A DNA stretch of 30,026 nucleotides from a virus, in IMG/VR virus record IMGVR_UViG_3300027608_000107, positions 1-30,026 of that record. One strand, written 5' to 3'. This document shows, piece by piece, positions 567 to 17,765 of the stretch (the stretch's first letter is position 1; the number at the start of each line of letters is the position of its first letter). The notes under the pieces are model-generated. The model was not told the DNA's origin and did not search any database. It saw only the letters and a list, made by a program, of their open reading frames with translations. The translations under genes were made by a program, and so were the position numbers.

Positions 567-910
567 TGTGCGGGTGAGGCGAGGGTTGCGCGTGCTGCCA
601 TCCAGTGCGGCTCGGCCTCGGTCTCGTCGGCGCTGAATCCATCCATTTGCCGCACCTCCATTTCCGCGATGAGCATCCCTTCCAGCGCGGTGCGCAGCCG
701 TGTGGCGTCGGCGCGGGCTGCGTCCCGCTCGGCGGTCGTGATGTGCAGCGCGAGCAGGCTGCCGTTGTTGCGCGCGATGTGCTCGTCCCGCTCGGCACGG
801 GCTGCGTTGCGCTGGATTTCCAGCGCGCGGGCGAAGGCAGGCCAGTCGCTCGGCGGGTGCGGGTCGCTGGCGTGCTTGGCGTCTGTTTCAGGTGTGGGTT
901 GGTCGGTCAT
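563..910 (-). CDS. coiled-coil phage protein of unknown function, 115 aa
   Basis: Begins MTDQPTPETDAKHAS and continues with a long helical stretch rich in Ala, Arg and Glu (ARALEIQRNAARAERDEH, then TTAERDAARADATRLR), which should form a coiled coil over about residues 25-85. Proteins that open with this kind of PTPETDA segment followed by an ERD-rich coil are common in phage early operons, but no function is established that I can cite. It is coupled to the DnaB-type helicase by an ATGA overlap at 907-910, so it may be made in a fixed ratio to it. Confidence 0.6.
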   Translation of the reverse strand: MTDQPTPETDAKHASDPHPPSDWPAFARALEIQRNAARAERDEHIARNNGSLLALHITTAERDAARADATRLRTALEGMLIAEMEVRQMDGFSADETEAEPHWMAARATLASPAQ

Positions 911-2196
911 TTGTGTTTTCGGTTTTGTTTGCTGGTGAAAGATTTCCCGCTGGCCTGCTCCGGCTCATGCGCCAATGGGTGCCACTCGAAAGTTTCGCCA
1001 CTGAATGACACCGGCACCGCTACGCCGGTCTTGCCCTGCCGCTGGCGCAGCCGTAGCAGCCGCGCGCCGGGTTCGTTCTCGCACATTTCAATGGTAACTT
1101 GCACCGTCGCGTCCATGCCGATGGCGCGACACTCGCGAAGCTCCCCGTCATCGTTCAGTTGCGCCAGTGCAATGACGGCTAGATTCTCGTCCTTTGCCAT
1201 GCGGCGAAGTGCCTTTGAGACGATGGCGATTTCCTGCTCACGCCGGTCTGCGCTTCCCGCGCCCTCAGTCAGTTGCAGGTAGTCCACCACCACCACGGCG
1301 AGGTCGGGCTGGACGGCCTTCACCTGCCGCACGTATGAGCGGATGCCCGCGAGGTCATACACGTCGTCACGGAAGAATATCGGCGCGAGCGCGAGGTTGT
1401 TTGCGGCGGCTTGCAGCTTAGGAAAGTCCATTTCGTGCATCGTTCCATCCCGCATCCGGCTCGCGCTCACCTTGCCCTCGGTCGCGAGCATGGCCTCCAC
1501 CGTGTCGTCACTGCTCATTTCCAGCCCGAAGACGAGCACGGGCTTCGCTTGGTCGAGTGCGACGGCGCGGACGATGTAGCGCACAAGGGCTGATTTGCCG
1601 CCCTTGGTTGGGCCTGCAATCACCCAGTATCCGCCAGTGCGAATTCCCCCGGTTTCCTCGTCCAGTCGAACGATGCCCGTGGACAAGCCGGCCATTTTCG
1701 AGCCATTCGTGCGGTTGTTGAGGTTTCCGAGCACAGTCATCACGATTTCTCGCGTGGTTTGAATTCTCGCCTTGTCCCGCCCTGCCGCAATGCTGGAAAT
1801 TTCCGCTTCGATGGCGGCGAGCACGGTGCCGGTCGGTTCCGTGGTCAACTGCTTGTAGGCGGCCTTGAGCGCGAGGGCGAGGCGGCGCTTGGCGTGCCCC
1901 TCCTTCACAATCTCGGCGTAGTGCGGGAGGGTGACGGGTTGCGCGGCTCCTTCGATGGCCGTTTGCAGCGTCCCGGCGCCCCCTACGGCGTCGAGACGGT
2001 CGCCGAGGGCGGTAGCGATGCCCACGAACCCTCCCGGTGCCTTGGCGAGCCATGCCGTCGCGATGGCGGTGAAGATGGTCGAGGGGATTTCATGGCTGAA
2101 CGTGTCGGCCCTGATTCCCGCTTCCGTCAGGAACGGGAGCGATTCGTCAGGCCACTGCAACGCGCAGCCGAGGATGGCGGTTTCTTCAAGTGTCAT
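907..2196 (-). CDS. dnaB: replicative DNA helicase, DnaB family
   Basis: A 429-residue protein with the two-domain plan of DnaB. The N-terminal domain (about 1-100) opens with the family's characteristic EETAILGCAL-type helix. A RecA-like domain follows, with Walker A GPTKGGKS at about 195-202, an EMSSDD segment after beta-strand 2, and a Walker B/YLQL strand (VVVVDYLQL). It would unwind DNA ahead of the fork as a hexamer. The family is normally about 450 residues, so length fits. The TGA at 2193 of the preceding replication protein overlaps its ATG (ATGA), the classic initiator/loader-then-helicase order. The Lys/Arg-rich tail (SKQNRKHK) may contact DNA. Confidence 0.9.
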   Translation of the reverse strand: MTLEETAILGCALQWPDESLPFLTEAGIRADTFSHEIPSTIFTAIATAWLAKAPGGFVGIATALGDRLDAVGGAGTLQTAIEGAAQPVTLPHYAEIVKEGHAKRRLALALKAAYKQLTTEPTGTVLAAIEAEISSIAAGRDKARIQTTREIVMTVLGNLNNRTNGSKMAGLSTGIVRLDEETGGIRTGGYWVIAGPTKGGKSALVRYIVRAVALDQAKPVLVFGLEMSSDDTVEAMLATEGKVSASRMRDGTMHEMDFPKLQAAANNLALAPIFFRDDVYDLAGIRSYVRQVKAVQPDLAVVVVDYLQLTEGAGSADRREQEIAIVSKALRRMAKDENLAVIALAQLNDDGELRECRAIGMDATVQVTIEMCENEPGARLLRLRQRQGKTGVAVPVSFSGETFEWHPLAHEPEQASGKSFTSKQNRKHK

Positions 2197-3083
2197 TGCA
2201 TTAAGCGTTTGCCGCCTTGGGTGTCGAATGGGCGTGCCAGCGGCGTGAATCCCGGCACCGGCTGGCGGTAGAAGGCTTCGAGCGGCGATTGCCCGTTGGC
2301 CACGCCCTCATCGCGCTGGTCGTAGTATTTCTGGAAGTTCGATGCGCGGAAAAGCGTCGAGGGCACAAGATGCGCGGACATTTTCGGATCGTTCTTCCAG
2401 AGCTTGACCTGTCGGCGAAGCATCTTCTCGCATTCCTCCGGCTCGATTCCCGACTCGTTTAGCCGTGCGATGATCGGGCTGAGGTGCGAGTCAACCGGCG
2501 TGAACTTCTTCCCGGTCAATTCGTTCAGAGCTTCCAGCAGCAGCTTTGCGTCGGCACGGATTGCGGCTCTGTGCGCTTCCATTTCCTCGCGAACTTGTCG
2601 CGCTTCCGCGACGGTGGGGTCTTCGGGTGGTTCTTCTTCCGTTCCTTTCTTATTCTCCTTCCTTTCTCCTTCCTCTTCCCCTTCCGTTGCGGCAGGTGCT
2701 TGAGCGAGTGGTCGAGCAGGTGCTTGAGCATCCGGTCGAGCATGTGCTTGAGCGTATGCCTGAGCACTTGCTTTACCGCCCCTTTTTCCAGCCTTCCGAT
2801 TCGCTGCAACCATCGCCTCCTTTTCGGTCGGATAGGCCGCGCAAAAGTAGTCCGCGCCTTCGCAGTAGAGCAGCGGCTTTGCGGATTCCACTTCGGCTTT
2901 TGTCACGCCTGCGGAAATCATCCACGTCCGGTCGTTCCATTCAACGGCACCTGCAAGCCTGCCACCGTTCTCTTGCTCACAGCAAAAGGAAAGCACGCGG
3001 AGCCACACGCCCAGCGCGGCGTTGTCGCATCCCGAAAATTCAGCGGATCGAAGCGATTCGGTTTTGATGTTCATCCAGTTCAT
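2193..3083 (-). CDS. replication initiation protein (lambda O / phage conserved C-terminal domain type)
   Basis: A 296-residue protein. The N-terminus (MNWMNIKTESLRSAEF, then ALGVWLRVLSFCC and TWMISAGVT) looks like a winged-helix DNA-binding domain. The middle (about 125-180) is a low-complexity Ala/Gln/Pro/Arg segment followed by a Glu/Lys-rich tract. The C-terminal 100 residues (LNELTGKKFTPVDSHLSPI, then RQVKLWKNDPKM and LVPSTLFRASNFQKYYDQ) match the conserved C-terminal phage replication domain that recruits the helicase. Start at 3083 is set by the ATGA overlap with the 67-aa gene; a longer in-frame start at 3173 would overrun that gene. The DnaB gene follows with another ATGA overlap. 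Confidence 0.82.
   Translation of the reverse strand: MNWMNIKTESLRSAEFSGCDNAALGVWLRVLSFCCEQENGGRLAGAVEWNDRTWMISAGVTKAEVESAKPLLYCEGADYFCAAYPTEKEAMVAANRKAGKRGGKASAQAYAQAHARPDAQAPARPLAQAPAATEGEEEGERKENKKGTEEEPPEDPTVAEARQVREEMEAHRAAIRADAKLLLEALNELTGKKFTPVDSHLSPIIARLNESGIEPEECEKMLRRQVKLWKNDPKMSAHLVPSTLFRASNFQKYYDQRDEGVANGQSPLEAFYRQPVPGFTPLARPFDTQGGKRLMQ
2631..2773. other. putative replication origin (iterons plus purine tract)
   Basis: Next to the iteron-like array lies a tract of about 55 bases (2631-2685) that is nearly all purine on the minus strand, interrupted at only three positions. In lambda, O-binding iterons are followed by an asymmetric A-rich strand where the duplex opens; the order here is the same and also sits inside the initiator gene. 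That comparison is established knowledge; its application here is inference. Confidence 0.45.
2692..2773 (-). repeat. tandem 24-bp iteron-like repeats inside the replication gene
   Basis: Three units of 24 bp (2692-2715, 2716-2739, 2740-2763) and part of a fourth follow head to tail. On the plus strand each starts GCA(G/T)GTGCTTGAGC. Inside each unit a 12-bp sub-period repeats the core TGCTTGAGC or a variant (TGGTCGAGC, CGGTCGAGC, TGCCTGAGC), giving about seven copies. The encoded peptide is an AQA-rich linker. Lambda carries its origin iterons inside gene O in the same way, so these are candidate initiator-binding sites. They could instead simply be a repetitive linker. Confidence 0.6.
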
Positions 3084-3292: not shown

Positions 3293-3320
3293 TTTATAGC
3301 TAAGTCTTTGCCTTTGTCAA
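3293..3320 (-). promoter_or_regulatory. near-consensus sigma70-like promoter for the replication genes
   Basis: Minus-strand TTGACA (3315-3320), a 16-base spacer and TATAAA (3293-3298) lie at the very end of the upstream methyltransferase gene and the short gap after it. Nine bases separate the -10 from the ATG at 3283, so the leader would be only about 3 bases. This is the closest consensus match I found in the window and would uncouple replication genes from the modification genes upstream. Confidence 0.65.
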
Positions 3321-4283
3321 TACGGAATCGCAAATATCAGCGGCCTTTCTTCCGTCGCCTTTCACGAACACAAGCACGTTCTGGTGTGTCTTGCACAGCT
3401 TCCGCCCAGCGCTGAATTGCCGTGTAACGCGCATGGATGCGCTGCCGACGCTCGTAACGAGGATGGCTTCATTATAAAGGGACAGCCCAGCGTCTAGGAA
3501 GGCCGCTATCGTCTCAGAAACGAAGTTCCGGTAGTTTCCCTTTCCATCGCGGAAATCGCCCACCACAAAGCACGCAAATCGGTTTTCGCGCAGACGCTTG
3601 CAGGCGCGGAAGATGATTGTGCGATACGCGATCACGAAATCTTTGTGAGGCATCGCGGACAAGTCCTCGCGGATGTCGCTGTATTGCTCTAAGTCTCCGT
3701 AGGGCGGGCAAGAGAAGATGAAATCTGCCTCGGGCGCTTTCTCCACTTCGTTCATCGAGTCGCCGCACACCCATTCCGGCATTGACTTGCCTTCGCACAG
3801 CGCCGCGCCTTGCGCTCGGTTCGCTTCGATTTGCTCGGCGCGGAGGTCGCATCCCCAATACCTCCGGCCAAGGTGCGCCGCCACAATGCCGCGCACGCTG
3901 CCGCCCGCGAACGGGTCGAGGATTTGTGCGCCTTCGCCGCTGAACCAGCGGTAGGCGAGTTCGCAGAGAACCGGGTCGAACAAAGAAACAACGCCGCCGC
4001 CTTCCTCTCCATTCTCCGGCTGCAAGTGCGGACTGGCGGCGAGCGCAGTCATCATGCAGGAGTTTTTACCAGTTGTGCAGTTCTTGCCGGTGACTTTTCG
4101 CGCCTCTGGCTTTATTCCCATCGCCGCCCACGCCCGCTTGCGCTCTTGCCAGTCGCCTTCCCGCGCATTGAGCACCGAGAACGGCGGCACGAGGAACTTT
4201 TGCGCCACGGGCGACGTGACCGGCGGGCGCATGGACTCGCCGAATAGATCGGTGCCGTAGAGGTGTTTTTCGAGGGTGCTCAT
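3300..4283 (-). CDS. DNA adenine/cytosine (amino) methyltransferase, SCPPY type
   Basis: A 327-residue AdoMet-dependent DNA methyltransferase. An N-terminal segment (VPPFSVLNAREGDWQERKR, about 32-50) precedes the catalytic part. Motif I is DPFAGGSVRG at 123-132, followed by the acidic AdoMet-ribose strand (GCDLR), and catalytic motif IV is SCPPY at 191-195. Motif I therefore comes before motif IV, the opposite order to the methyltransferase at 5348. The exocyclic-amino class is clear; N4-cytosine versus N6-adenine is not. Start at 4283 rests on the ATGA overlap with the PLP-enzyme gene. From memory, phage proteins with this N-terminal segment tend to occur beside PLP enzymes; this needs a search. 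The N-terminal segment may be a specificity or partner-binding part. Confidence 0.85.
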   Translation of the reverse strand: MSTLEKHLYGTDLFGESMRPPVTSPVAQKFLVPPFSVLNAREGDWQERKRAWAAMGIKPEARKVTGKNCTTGKNSCMMTALAASPHLQPENGEEGGGVVSLFDPVLCELAYRWFSGEGAQILDPFAGGSVRGIVAAHLGRRYWGCDLRAEQIEANRAQGAALCEGKSMPEWVCGDSMNEVEKAPEADFIFSCPPYGDLEQYSDIREDLSAMPHKDFVIAYRTIIFRACKRLRENRFACFVVGDFRDGKGNYRNFVSETIAAFLDAGLSLYNEAILVTSVGSASMRVTRQFSAGRKLCKTHQNVLVFVKGDGRKAADICDSVLTKAKT

Positions 4284-4975
4284 GCTGCGACGTTCCAGAA
4301 AAGTGCTCCGTTGCTGGCTCTGGCGACGATGTGCCGCCAAGCCTTCGCGTCGTAGTTTGAGCAGGACGGAAAGGGCGGCGGCTCGGCGGCGTCTTGCTCG
4401 TATTTCTCCGTGGCCACGATTATCTCAGCGGTGCCAGCGTCCGGCGTCTTGCCGACTTGGACGGCGAAGAATTGCGCGGACGGCCACGCCCGCTGCAATC
4501 CACGCTGCAAGGTGCCGCTGCCCGCCACGCTCCAAACTTCATCCGGCACGATTGAGAGCATCCGCGCCCGTTGTGCGATGGCTTCCACCATTTCCTCGCA
4601 CGCCAGCCCGAACGGGAGCATCCTTGCGCCTGTCTCCGCGCAGTAGCCACGTGCCCGCGATTGAACCACGGATAGATAACCGGGGCGGGCTTTAAGAACC
4701 TTCGCGCCAAGCTCCATCGCCTTTAGCGTGCGCGGATGCGTCACCATGCTGTCGGCCAGATAAAGCGTGGCCAGCTTTCCTGCCGCCTTACACGCCGCCG
4801 CCAGCGCGATCTGCGCGTAGCCTTGGCGCGGGCCAGCATAGACAAGCTCGCGCTCCGGCATGTTTTCGATGAAGGAAAGCAACGCCGCCTCTTTCGTGCC
4901 TCCGGTCAATAAGTCATCACGCACGACGGAAATGCTTTTCCCGTTCGCCGTGAATGTTTCTAGTTTTGCGCTCAT
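4280..4975 (-). CDS. PLP-dependent enzyme (fold type II, tryptophan synthase beta-like), phage type
   Basis: A 231-residue protein with features of fold type II pyridoxal-phosphate enzymes. GGTK at 25-28 would supply the Schiff-base lysine (K28), QGYAQIALA at about 51-59 replaces the substrate loop, and AGSGT at 151-155 is the expected phosphate-binding turn. The C-terminal PFPSCSNYDAKAW (201-213) is a distinctive signature. At 231 residues it is much shorter than metabolic relatives (usually 330 or more), so it is a compact variant. It is coupled on both sides by ATGA overlaps, to the 60-aa gene and to the methyltransferase. The reaction is unknown; beta-replacement, elimination or modification of a nucleobase adduct are possible. 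Confidence 0.72.
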   Translation of the reverse strand: MSAKLETFTANGKSISVVRDDLLTGGTKEAALLSFIENMPERELVYAGPRQGYAQIALAAACKAAGKLATLYLADSMVTHPRTLKAMELGAKVLKARPGYLSVVQSRARGYCAETGARMLPFGLACEEMVEAIAQRARMLSIVPDEVWSVAGSGTLQRGLQRAWPSAQFFAVQVGKTPDAGTAEIIVATEKYEQDAAEPPPFPSCSNYDAKAWRHIVARASNGALFWNVAA

Positions 4976-5154
4976 AGCGGATTGCGTCCCTTCTCTGTGA
5001 TTTCCATCACGCGCCACTTGCCCTTGCCAAACGCGGAGCGGGCTTCATCGGGCGTCGCAAATTGCTTTTGCACGTCGCGCCACGCGAGTTGTTTTTCGTC
5101 GAACCATTGCGCCTTGTAGTAGGGCGCGAATCGGCAGCTTCCTTGTGTTCTCAT
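4972..5154 (-). CDS. hypothetical protein, 60 aa
   Basis: Compact protein (MRTQGSCRFAPYYKAQWFDE, with DVQKQFATPDEARSAFGKGK later) with the look of a small beta-alpha domain of about 55 residues, similar in layout to short proteins that carry a 'query sequence then helix' fold in phages. No family recognised with confidence. It overlaps the PLP-enzyme gene by ATGA and lies just after the strong hairpin at 5166-5213, so it is the first gene of the PLP/methyltransferase unit if that hairpin terminates upstream transcription. Confidence 0.6.
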   Translation of the reverse strand: MRTQGSCRFAPYYKAQWFDEKQLAWRDVQKQFATPDEARSAFGKGKWRVMEITEKGRNPL

Positions 5155-5261: not shown

Positions 5262-5351
5262 CTACCGCATCCCCGCGCCCGTTGCAAGCGCAATCTCTCG
5301 CCTGCTCATGCGCGGGCGCGGCGGGGTGGTTTGGTTCTGGGTCGTGCTCAT
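5262..5351 (-). CDS. possible 29-aa micro-ORF
   Basis: Starts MSTTQNQTTPPRPRMSRREI and ends GAGMR. Its ATG overlaps the TGA of the methyltransferase as ATGA (5348-5351), which argues for real coupling. It is Thr/Pro-rich then basic, with no recognised domain. The gap from 5155 to 5347 contains only this frame, the 32-codon frame and the hairpin. Confidence 0.35.
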   Translation of the reverse strand: MSTTQNQTTPPRPRMSRREIALATGAGMR

Positions 5352-6304
5352 ACCGGGATAAGCTCTTGCTCTACGTGGTTCTCAACGTCAGCAAGGTTGG
5401 CAATGGCCTGTTTGAAATACGATTCTTTTAGTTCGCATCCCATTCCTTTTCGCCCGTTCAATACGGCACCAAATACTTCACTGCCAACGCCCATAAACGG
5501 CGTGAATACGACTTCTCCGGGGTTGCTCCAAAGCACGCAAGCGCGCTCGATAACGTCGAGTTGAAGCGGATGGCAGTGCCGCTCATCGTCATTCTCTTTG
5601 GCCTCCCGATGCTTCAACACCTCGTCAATGCGGATGTCGTCCCAGAAGGCGTCCGCGTAGCGCCGCCAAATCCAGTGAGAGAAGCGGTTTTTCTTTTGGT
5701 CGCCATCCATGCCCTTGAGGTGCCGGATGTCGGCAGGCATTTGCTCCTCGCCAGCGTAGCGGTGCAGTCCGGTAGGGTGAGAGACAGGCACCGCGTTTTC
5801 ACCGCTACGGCGGAAGATGAGAAGCTGGTCAGCGTTTGCCATAGAGCACCGCGATGAGTCCTCACACATTTGCCGATGAGCCAGAGATTTCATCATCGTG
5901 CGGTTGCGAACCGTTAGCGGCTCTTTCCAGATGAAATACCGATGAGTGAAACGGAATCCGTTCTTTTCGTGCAGGCGGATAACGTCGCCGGGAAAATCCG
6001 TAAGCGCGTCATTGCCTGAGTTGCCGGTCGGAATATCCATGCAATGCACGGCGCTCATCCTTCCCGGCTTCGTGAGTCGGTGGAGTTCTTGAATCACAAA
6101 CTCGTAATGCCTGTAAAACTCATCCTTAGAAATGCAGTTGGACAAATCCTGTTCGTCGCTGCTGTATTGGTAGAGTCCCGCGAATGGCGGCGAGTAAAGC
6201 GAGAGATCAACGATGCTCGCCGGGAGTTGCTTCATCACCTCCACGCAGTCGCCGTGGTAGAGTGCATATTTTTTGGTCAGTAGTTCTTTCGGTGTAGTGT
6301 TCAT
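5348..6304 (-). CDS. DNA N4-cytosine-type methyltransferase (SPPF, permuted motif order)
   Basis: A 318-residue methyltransferase. The N-terminus carries LYHGDCVEVMKQLP and the catalytic motif IV SPPF at 38-41, a form typical of N4-cytosine enzymes. The AdoMet-binding motif X/I region is at the C-terminal end: HPLQLDVIERA at 245-255 and TPFMGVGSEVFGA at 268-280. Motif IV thus precedes motif I, as in beta-class enzymes. A C-terminal GMGCEL strand supports the fold. It sits 4 bases after the SNF2-type helicase, a pairing often seen in phage genomes. There is no restriction endonuclease nearby, so it is most likely an orphan methyltransferase for protecting phage DNA or marking it. Confidence 0.88.
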   Translation of the reverse strand: MNTTPKELLTKKYALYHGDCVEVMKQLPASIVDLSLYSPPFAGLYQYSSDEQDLSNCISKDEFYRHYEFVIQELHRLTKPGRMSAVHCMDIPTGNSGNDALTDFPGDVIRLHEKNGFRFTHRYFIWKEPLTVRNRTMMKSLAHRQMCEDSSRCSMANADQLLIFRRSGENAVPVSHPTGLHRYAGEEQMPADIRHLKGMDGDQKKNRFSHWIWRRYADAFWDDIRIDEVLKHREAKENDDERHCHPLQLDVIERACVLWSNPGEVVFTPFMGVGSEVFGAVLNGRKGMGCELKESYFKQAIANLADVENHVEQELIPV

Positions 6305-16942: not shown

Positions 16943-17220
16943 ATTGGTTTTCGTTCGGGCCATTTTCCTTTGGGGCAGTCCTCAGTAATCAGCGCGGCCT
17001 TCGCTTGCAAAAAGCATCCGCAGACGGCGCACCGCGCGCCTAGCGCGCCATCCGGCATAAGGAAGTGCGTGCATTCTGTGCAAGCTGCCATCCGCCCCTT
17101 GCGAACATCCAGCGAAGCAATCAGCTTGCCTGTCGCGATGACGCCAATCACCGCCTTCGTTGCCGCCGCCGCAACTCGCCCCGCCGCTGTCACCGCGTTC
17201 TTTACGCATCCGCAACTCAT
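16939..17220 (-). CDS. Cys-rich phage protein ending CPxGKW (putative zinc site), 93 aa
   Basis: Starts MSCGCVKNAVTAAGRVAAAA and, after a hydrophobic Ala/Val segment (about 18-32), contains CTECTHF then CAVCGC and the closing CPKGKW. The 'C..C...C..CGC.l..K...CP.GKW' pattern recurs in small phage proteins encoded near tail/fibre genes; its function is unknown to me, but a zinc site is likely. Start at 17220 is chosen because it overlaps the preceding TGA (ATGA at 17217-17220); the upstream ATGs at 17235 and 17226 are inside the previous gene. Confidence 0.65.
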   Translation of the reverse strand: MSCGCVKNAVTAAGRVAAAATKAVIGVIATGKLIASLDVRKGRMAACTECTHFLMPDGALGARCAVCGCFLQAKAALITEDCPKGKWPERKPI

Positions 17221-17765
17221 GGGCATGAAGCGCAAGTTATTTCAATGAGCGTGCCGCCGCTGTATGCGCTTTGGTTTCCGCTGCTGCTTAAATAGTAAAT
17301 TGTGGACGACACGTAATCATCGCCGGGCGCAATATCTTCGCCGTTGACGCAGATGGAGTATCCGCCAGTATTTGTCACTCGAATCTCTGTTGTCTCAGTG
17401 CCCGCGTATGTTCCGCAAGAACTGTATCTGTTATACCAAAAACGAAACTGGCGGACGGTAGGAGTGTCGAACGTATAATTGCCGGTGATTATTTCTGGCG
17501 GATATGGGCTGCTGGCGCAATTCGGGTGTGCGTCGCTGTTAAGCGTAAGTGTGCCGCCGACTCCGACTTGAGATAAGCGACCGTAATATACCGCACTCAG
17601 CGCGTCCTCACGTCCATACAAGTCGAGGTCGGTTCCATCCGTCCAATCCAGCGTGGCGGTGATTGTGAACGTGCATGTTTGCCCGCAATCCACAAGCAGC
17701 GTGGACGCCGCGCAGTTTGTTAGCAGCGTGGATGCGGCGCAGTTTGTTAGCAGTTTCGCAGCCAT
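17217..17765 (-). CDS. Cys-rich secreted-type beta-sandwich (YfaP/DUF2135-like), 182 aa
   Basis: The core, about 30-130, resembles the YfaP/DUF2135 beta-sandwich: TATLDWTDGTDLDLYG, then YYGRLSQVGVGGTLTLNSDA and PPEIITGNYTF, followed by strands ending TEIRVTNTGG. The family is usually associated with cell-surface proteins. Nine or more cysteines suggest disulphides or metal sites. The N-terminus holds two copies of LLTNCAAST and a degenerate third. It sits between distal tail and fibre genes, so it may be a tail-tip decoration or adhesin. No signal peptide is evident, so cysteines may stay reduced until virions are released. Confidence 0.5.
   Translation of the reverse strand: MAAKLLTNCAASTLLTNCAASTLLVDCGQTCTFTITATLDWTDGTDLDLYGREDALSAVYYGRLSQVGVGGTLTLNSDAHPNCASSPYPPEIITGNYTFDTPTVRQFRFWYNRYSSCGTYAGTETTEIRVTNTGGYSICVNGEDIAPGDDYVSSTIYYLSSSGNQSAYSGGTLIEITCASCP
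17695..17748 (-). repeat. 27-bp tandem repeat encoding LLTNCAAST
   Basis: Units 17695-17721 and 17722-17748 are identical at 25 of 27 positions and lie head to tail in the 5' end of the Cys-rich gene. Unit length is a multiple of three, so copy number can change without loss of frame. A third partial unit (LLVDCG region) follows in the protein direction. Confidence 0.75.

Follow-up and report, generated by a model that had tools for sequence, protein, structure and literature searches.

The linker of a viral replication initiator gene very probably doubles as a phage replication origin of the iteron type that works like the origin of lambda, judging by its sequence pattern: an array of short repeats is followed, within the gene, by a tract of purines. 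The gene lies in a 30,026-base virus record (IMG/VR IMGVR_UViG_3300027608_000107), analysed over its whole length and referred to below as the window. Its initiator falls outside the lambda O family, and its tract has purines concentrated on one strand but is not AT-rich. On this basis, origins can be predicted for a large set of phages with kinship to those of Akkermansia. A literature search yielded no prior description of such origins; most subscription journals lay outside its coverage.

The initiator gene and its repeats

The initiator gene (2193–3083, minus strand) encodes 296 amino acids and matches PHROG 428, replication initiation protein (E 2.6e-17). Its C-terminal part carries the Phg_2220_C domain (PF09524; 2322–2537, minus strand; 52 bits against a cut-off of 27), the sole Pfam family in the protein up to E 0.1, and its N-terminal domain (amino acids 1–104; 2772–3083, minus strand) is a putative DNA-binding domain common to Akkermansia phages and recovered at 112 loci. 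The gene stands directly upstream of a DnaB-like replicative helicase gene (907–2196, minus strand; PF03796, E 5.9e-41; phrog_19, E 9.4e-56), whose start overlaps the initiator stop. Because the initiator gene is on the minus strand, the order within it is repeats, then tract. Two DNA methyltransferase genes and a threonine-dehydratase-like (PALP) phage gene adjoin the replication genes (3300–5017 and 5348–6304).

Tandem Repeats Finder reports a 24-bp array at 2692–2758 (2.8 copies, score 92, 12-bp sub-period), and a separate repeat search gives three copies at 24-bp spacing that extend to 2773. The iteron array, about three 24-bp units at 2692–2773 on the minus strand, lies between the N-terminal and C-terminal domains of the initiator gene. 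The original prediction had placed about 3.5 copies of a 24-bp repeat in the linker of the replication protein; repeat and place stand, and the copy number comes down to nearer three. The four AAGC cores of the array (2773–2770, 2749–2746, 2725–2722 and 2701–2698, minus strand) are spaced 24 bp, and GCTCAAGCA (reverse complement TGCTTGAGC) has exactly three exact occurrences in the record, all within the array. Another array, at 17695–17753, outscores that of the linker in Tandem Repeats Finder (104 vs 92); it is a 27-bp repeat of 2.2 copies in a small ORF (17217–17765) of the structural-gene half.

Does the peptide account for the repeats? When the peptide was left as it is and its codons were replaced at random by synonyms, drawn from those of the gene itself plus every synonym equally, 2.5 repeated 8-mer pairs are expected in the linker and 16 are found (p = 0.002, the floor of the test); the linker stretches are also those with the densest repeated 8-mers per 100 nt in the window. 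GCA and GCT make up 12 of the 13 alanine codons in the linker; elsewhere in the gene their share is 12 of 29 (Fisher p = 0.002), and across 12 other genes it is 232 of 657 (p = 4e-5). All repeat copies of the window are in frame, so that protein constraint as the cause of the repeats is only disfavoured from the window alone, and the reading-frame argument rests on relatives.

Relatives conserve the DNA pattern and not the peptide

A scan with the full-length protein gave no relatives, and alignments with the N-domain were therefore used instead; its ~104 residues are shared by three phages of Akkermansia (tblastn E 3e-14 to 2e-13). These alignments gave 26 viral loci, then the best 80 of 129 matching places (L009 being in both), and four bacterial loci. 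The window and 112 loci, the three named Akkermansia phages included, make 113 gene copies, some of them copies of one phage. They reduce to 87 distinct DNAs and, once the truncated L047 was dropped, to 86 genes of at least 130 codons, which fall into 47 clusters when genes are joined at 90% identity across 300 nt or more of their first 450. Their common layout is an N-domain, an array of short repeats, a purine tract and then varied C-termini. One contig (L037), titled as a Clostridiales MAG, has its initiator placed among those of Akkermansia phages, which is probably a binning error.

The synonymous-codon test gave p < 0.05 for the linker in 34 of 47 clusters, for the N-domain in 1 of 47 and for the C-terminal part in 2 of 46; repeated pairs numbered 821, 6 and 18 in these three parts, with 63.8, 4.8 and 13.7 expected. 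Of the 47 clusters, 20 have two or more repeat pairs in different frames. L087 carries AACCCAAGC every 11 bp, read in all three frames, and Akkermansia phage DTMo-2021a has GGAAACCAACG repeats spaced 25 bp. Of 129 spacings between successive AAGC cores, 101 measure 11, 12, 23 or 24 bp (30, 52, 6 and 13 times, respectively; other spacings, 28 times), and, the spacing being mostly 11 or 12 bp, the copies therefore stand in different frames. The original prediction had suggested looking among relatives for a DNA repeat kept while the protein drifts, a kept peptide with a lost repeat being the outcome that would count against an origin. The relatives do the opposite of the latter: they keep the DNA pattern and alter the peptide, also by way of other reading frames. 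With the synonymous control exceeded and the DNA repeated out of frame in relatives, the claim that protein constraint alone is insufficient for the DNA repeat holds. A DNA element inside a gene thus keeps its sequence while the peptide changes, even across frames.

A later set covered the phylum of an Akkermansia genome, where 13 of 288 genomes matched, with 16 loci. The synonymous test gave p < 0.05 at nine of the 16 and not at three, and four were unscorable; several loci are near-copies of earlier ones, the clearly new being L263, L264 and L265. L266, L268, L269 and L272 match remotely or in part, with an unconvincing pattern, and L267 is a fragment.

The purine tract and the proposed working of the candidate origin

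The tract of the window (2631–2685, minus strand) measures 55 nt and is 96% purine, in agreement with the ~55 nearly pure purine bases first noted on one strand; we propose it as an element for unwinding and helicase loading. It scores 45, whereas no other tract in the window reaches 20 and the highest score in 100 shuffles was 22; it also falls within the least stable 1.3% of the window's 50-mers. Its position is matched in relatives: in 46 of 47 clusters no other purine tract of the gene scores better, and in 45 of 47 a tract scoring at least 20 comes after the array. L009, whose tract was misplaced in the computation, was tallied as a miss, though its sequence has repeats and a purine tract that continues beyond a stop codon.

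In the relatives, the tract is a GGAA array with a period of about 5 bp, and GGAA units stand 5 bp apart 112 times vs 9.3 expected. Self-match of the tracts at lag 5 is 0.654, vs 0.455 with letters shuffled within tracts, and at lag 3 it is 0.311, under the shuffled value; the periodicity is therefore a pattern of the DNA rather than of codons. The window tract is looser than those of its relatives, with its best self-match at lags 6 and 11. The array/tract boundary is marked by the junction ACGGAA (2682–2687, minus strand, in the window); 30 of 47 clusters have it where the tract begins, 14 of them in frame 0, 3 in frame 1 and 13 in frame 2. One DNA string is therefore read as three different peptides, T-E-G, N-G-K/R or R-K-G.

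How far does the likeness to lambda extend? In lambdoid phages the origin, made up of iterons and an AT-rich tract, occupies the central part of O (PMC7466680), and the A+T-rich region of lambda is described as having almost all purines on one strand (PMC5043065). When the same synonymous test was run on lambda gene O, in which iterons are annotated, the gene gave 16 pairs vs 0.1 expected (p 0.002), and its best purine run on the coding strand came soon after iteron 4; both signals thus recur there, and in the order seen in the window. The window resembles lambda in having its initiator sites mid-gene with a nearly all-purine strand just after them, and in a similar test score. It differs in several respects: (i) the window tract is 46% GC (median 42% in the 47 clusters), whereas the 18-nt purine run of lambda is 17% GC; (ii) the window initiator has no O-family match in Pfam; (iii) the gene that follows encodes DnaB itself, where lambda has a P-type loader; and (iv) the cores are 11–12 or 24 bp apart. 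The lambda-like arrangement of the original prediction is therefore upheld for the gene position, the repeats beside a tract and the purine strand bias, and not for AT-richness or homology to lambda O. The closest functional parallel is the Rep protein of pSK41 (RepA_N), whose N-domain is reported to bind boxes centrally in rep, the ori-encoded linker being dispensable for the protein (PMC5703833); by position and pattern, the candidate origin here is likewise central in its rep gene. RepA_N has no Pfam match here, and its structural match (Z 4.2) is tied with other winged helices.

What would be the mechanism of initiation? Several initiator copies would bind the AAGC-core iterons through their N-terminal domains. 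Plasmid iterons are described as generally in phase with the helix (PMC5043065). Here, iterons one or two helical turns apart (11–12 or 23–24 bp) would align the bound copies on one face of the DNA, which they may bend or wrap. The resulting strain would open the adjacent purine/pyrimidine tract, and the C-terminal module would load the phage DnaB onto the exposed strand; in some relatives, a DnaC-like loader would probably be brought instead of DnaB.

Alternatively, the repeats could have arisen incidentally, by slippage in a tolerant, low-complexity Ala/Gln linker and a charged Glu/Lys/Gly stretch, the DNA itself being functionless. The in-frame copies of the window would fit such a history, as would the unrelated Ala-rich protein of L160, which also has repeated GCTCAAGCACCTGCTC. 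It is nevertheless very improbable given that the synonymous-codon control is exceeded, that the same DNA is repeated out of frame in 20 of 47 clusters and the junction occurs in three frames, and that the tracts fall below their shuffled value at lag 3 and far above it at lag 5. The array could also serve as an operator through which the initiator represses or adjusts its own operon, the origin being elsewhere. Arrays of initiator sites near rep genes can indeed serve autoregulation, according to PMC5703833, and GC skew, which had been put forward as a check on the site, does not mark it in Akkermansia phage Chantilly or in the window, where the minimum is at 5673; DTMo-2021a has its maximum (10822) close to the site (10058). 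An operator is, however, hard to reconcile with an array in mid-gene rather than at a promoter, and it would have no need of the purine tract that follows the array with a score of at least 20 in 45 of 47 clusters, and we consider it very improbable.

Shine-Dalgarno-like AAGGAG stretches within the tract raise the question of an internal ribosome site from which the C-terminal domain would be made as a separate product. This candidate was rejected as extremely improbable: an in-frame ATG near the tract end is no commoner than expected (6 of 47 clusters vs 7.1), one site would not need so long an array of 5-bp units, and the iterons would be left unexplained. An iteron-type origin within the gene is the reading we retain. 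Counting against it are the GC skew, the switching of repeat classes beneath similar N-domains and the small number of clusters with a DnaB relative downstream (both described below), and the in-frame copies and looser tract of the window itself.

A bolder proposal, which we put forward as possible and rather doubtful, is that the tract is a new kind of unwinding element: a ~5-bp GGAA purine array that is not AT-rich and occurs in all frames and across lineages. Opening might follow from transcription of the gene, if it formed a stable purine-rich RNA-DNA hybrid, or the initiator or a loader might capture the pyrimidine strand. Purely by analogy, the tract may be compared with the DnaD recognition element of Bacillus subtilis oriC, described as a strand-specific single-stranded motif of the unwinding region, beside initiator boxes, that serves to recruit the helicase (PMC10201434). 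The same proposal would make origin and N-domain a portable cartridge fitted to many C-terminal helicase-recruiting modules; in pPR9, N-domain and origin are reported to have been replaced together, the C-terminus staying (PMC5703833). A tract that is not AT-rich offers a test case for how origins open, and the idea of a swappable origin/initiator module becomes directly testable.

The N-domain, repeat classes and apparent module exchange

DNA binding by the N-domain is suggested by resemblance only. Its AlphaFold2 model (pLDDT 89.7) has a helix-turn-helix (helix pair) and a two-stranded wing. Foldseek against viral models matched phage replisome organizers and helix-turn-helix proteins (best E 2.6e-4), and against the PDB it gave nothing at E 0.001 or below; VIA placed initiator/Rep structures first, at Z 4.2 at most and tied with other winged helices. 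No Pfam family matched the N-domain at its cut-off.

Does the repeat type follow the N-domain? The data bear this out in part only. Repeat classes A and B, which both keep the AAGC core, switch beneath nearly identical N-domains (L048/L057, L079/L087, L067/L078), and the repeat type therefore does not simply follow the N-domain. On an N-domain tree of 54 rows (47 clusters and 7 further members; the window, L078, L105 and L052 set to class A by eye), the Akkermansia repeat type clusters, with 2 changes vs 8.5 when shuffled, and classes A and B barely do (13 vs 17.3 and 10 vs 12.6). Class B is accompanied by a peptide segment, AK..A..NG, which follows the N-domain in 14 of 14 distinct genes with at least three ACCnAAG copies and in three genes with fewer; 69 genes have neither. 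Either only the AAGC core is read, or the AK..A..NG segment helps to read the remainder. The nearest tree neighbour of the window, L009, has from position 521 onward an array of TCGCTGAGCGA units, partly out of frame; its purine tract continues past an in-frame stop, and no C-terminal domain was found there.

Behind the same N-domain, the C-terminal parts form 13 groups by score (15 less the stubs L009 and L033; single linkage, so that some groups may be remote kin). L034 shares 80% of its N-domain with L006 and not its C-terminus; with L005 it shares 81% of the C-terminus over 183 residues, at 57% N-domain identity. Among the 46 other clusters, 6 have a recognisable DnaB relative downstream of the initiator, within 120 bases in L004, L006, L040, L098 and L102 and at 929 in L105; the remaining clusters are flanked by other genes, some loader-like by eye. 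With the window DnaB as query, 14 loci (L238–L251) gave DnaB stretches 96–100% identical, and the window's initiator stands beside none of them. In its place, upstream of these DnaBs, come other and apparently unrelated initiator-like proteins (5 and 3 loci), a loader resembling DnaC (4 loci) or, at 2 loci, a methyltransferase, named partly by eye; the loader gene weakly matches an IstB-like ATPase and the gene preceding it, weakly, DUF1376. The tail FDTQGGKRLMQ is common to the window and 8 of the 14. Initiator and origin thus look as though they had been exchanged as a cassette beside a constant helicase.

The pattern GCTCAAGCACNTGCTC has many matches in viral contigs and alone is not diagnostic; of the 80 matches listed, all but L155 and L160 had a single copy. 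L155 has the layout of an initiator-like protein with a different N-domain (by eye; no Pfam match). At ~4700–4830 on its minus strand, the linker holds an array of TGCTCAAGCACC with a 12-bp period, followed by a stretch that is AT-rich rather than purine-rich.
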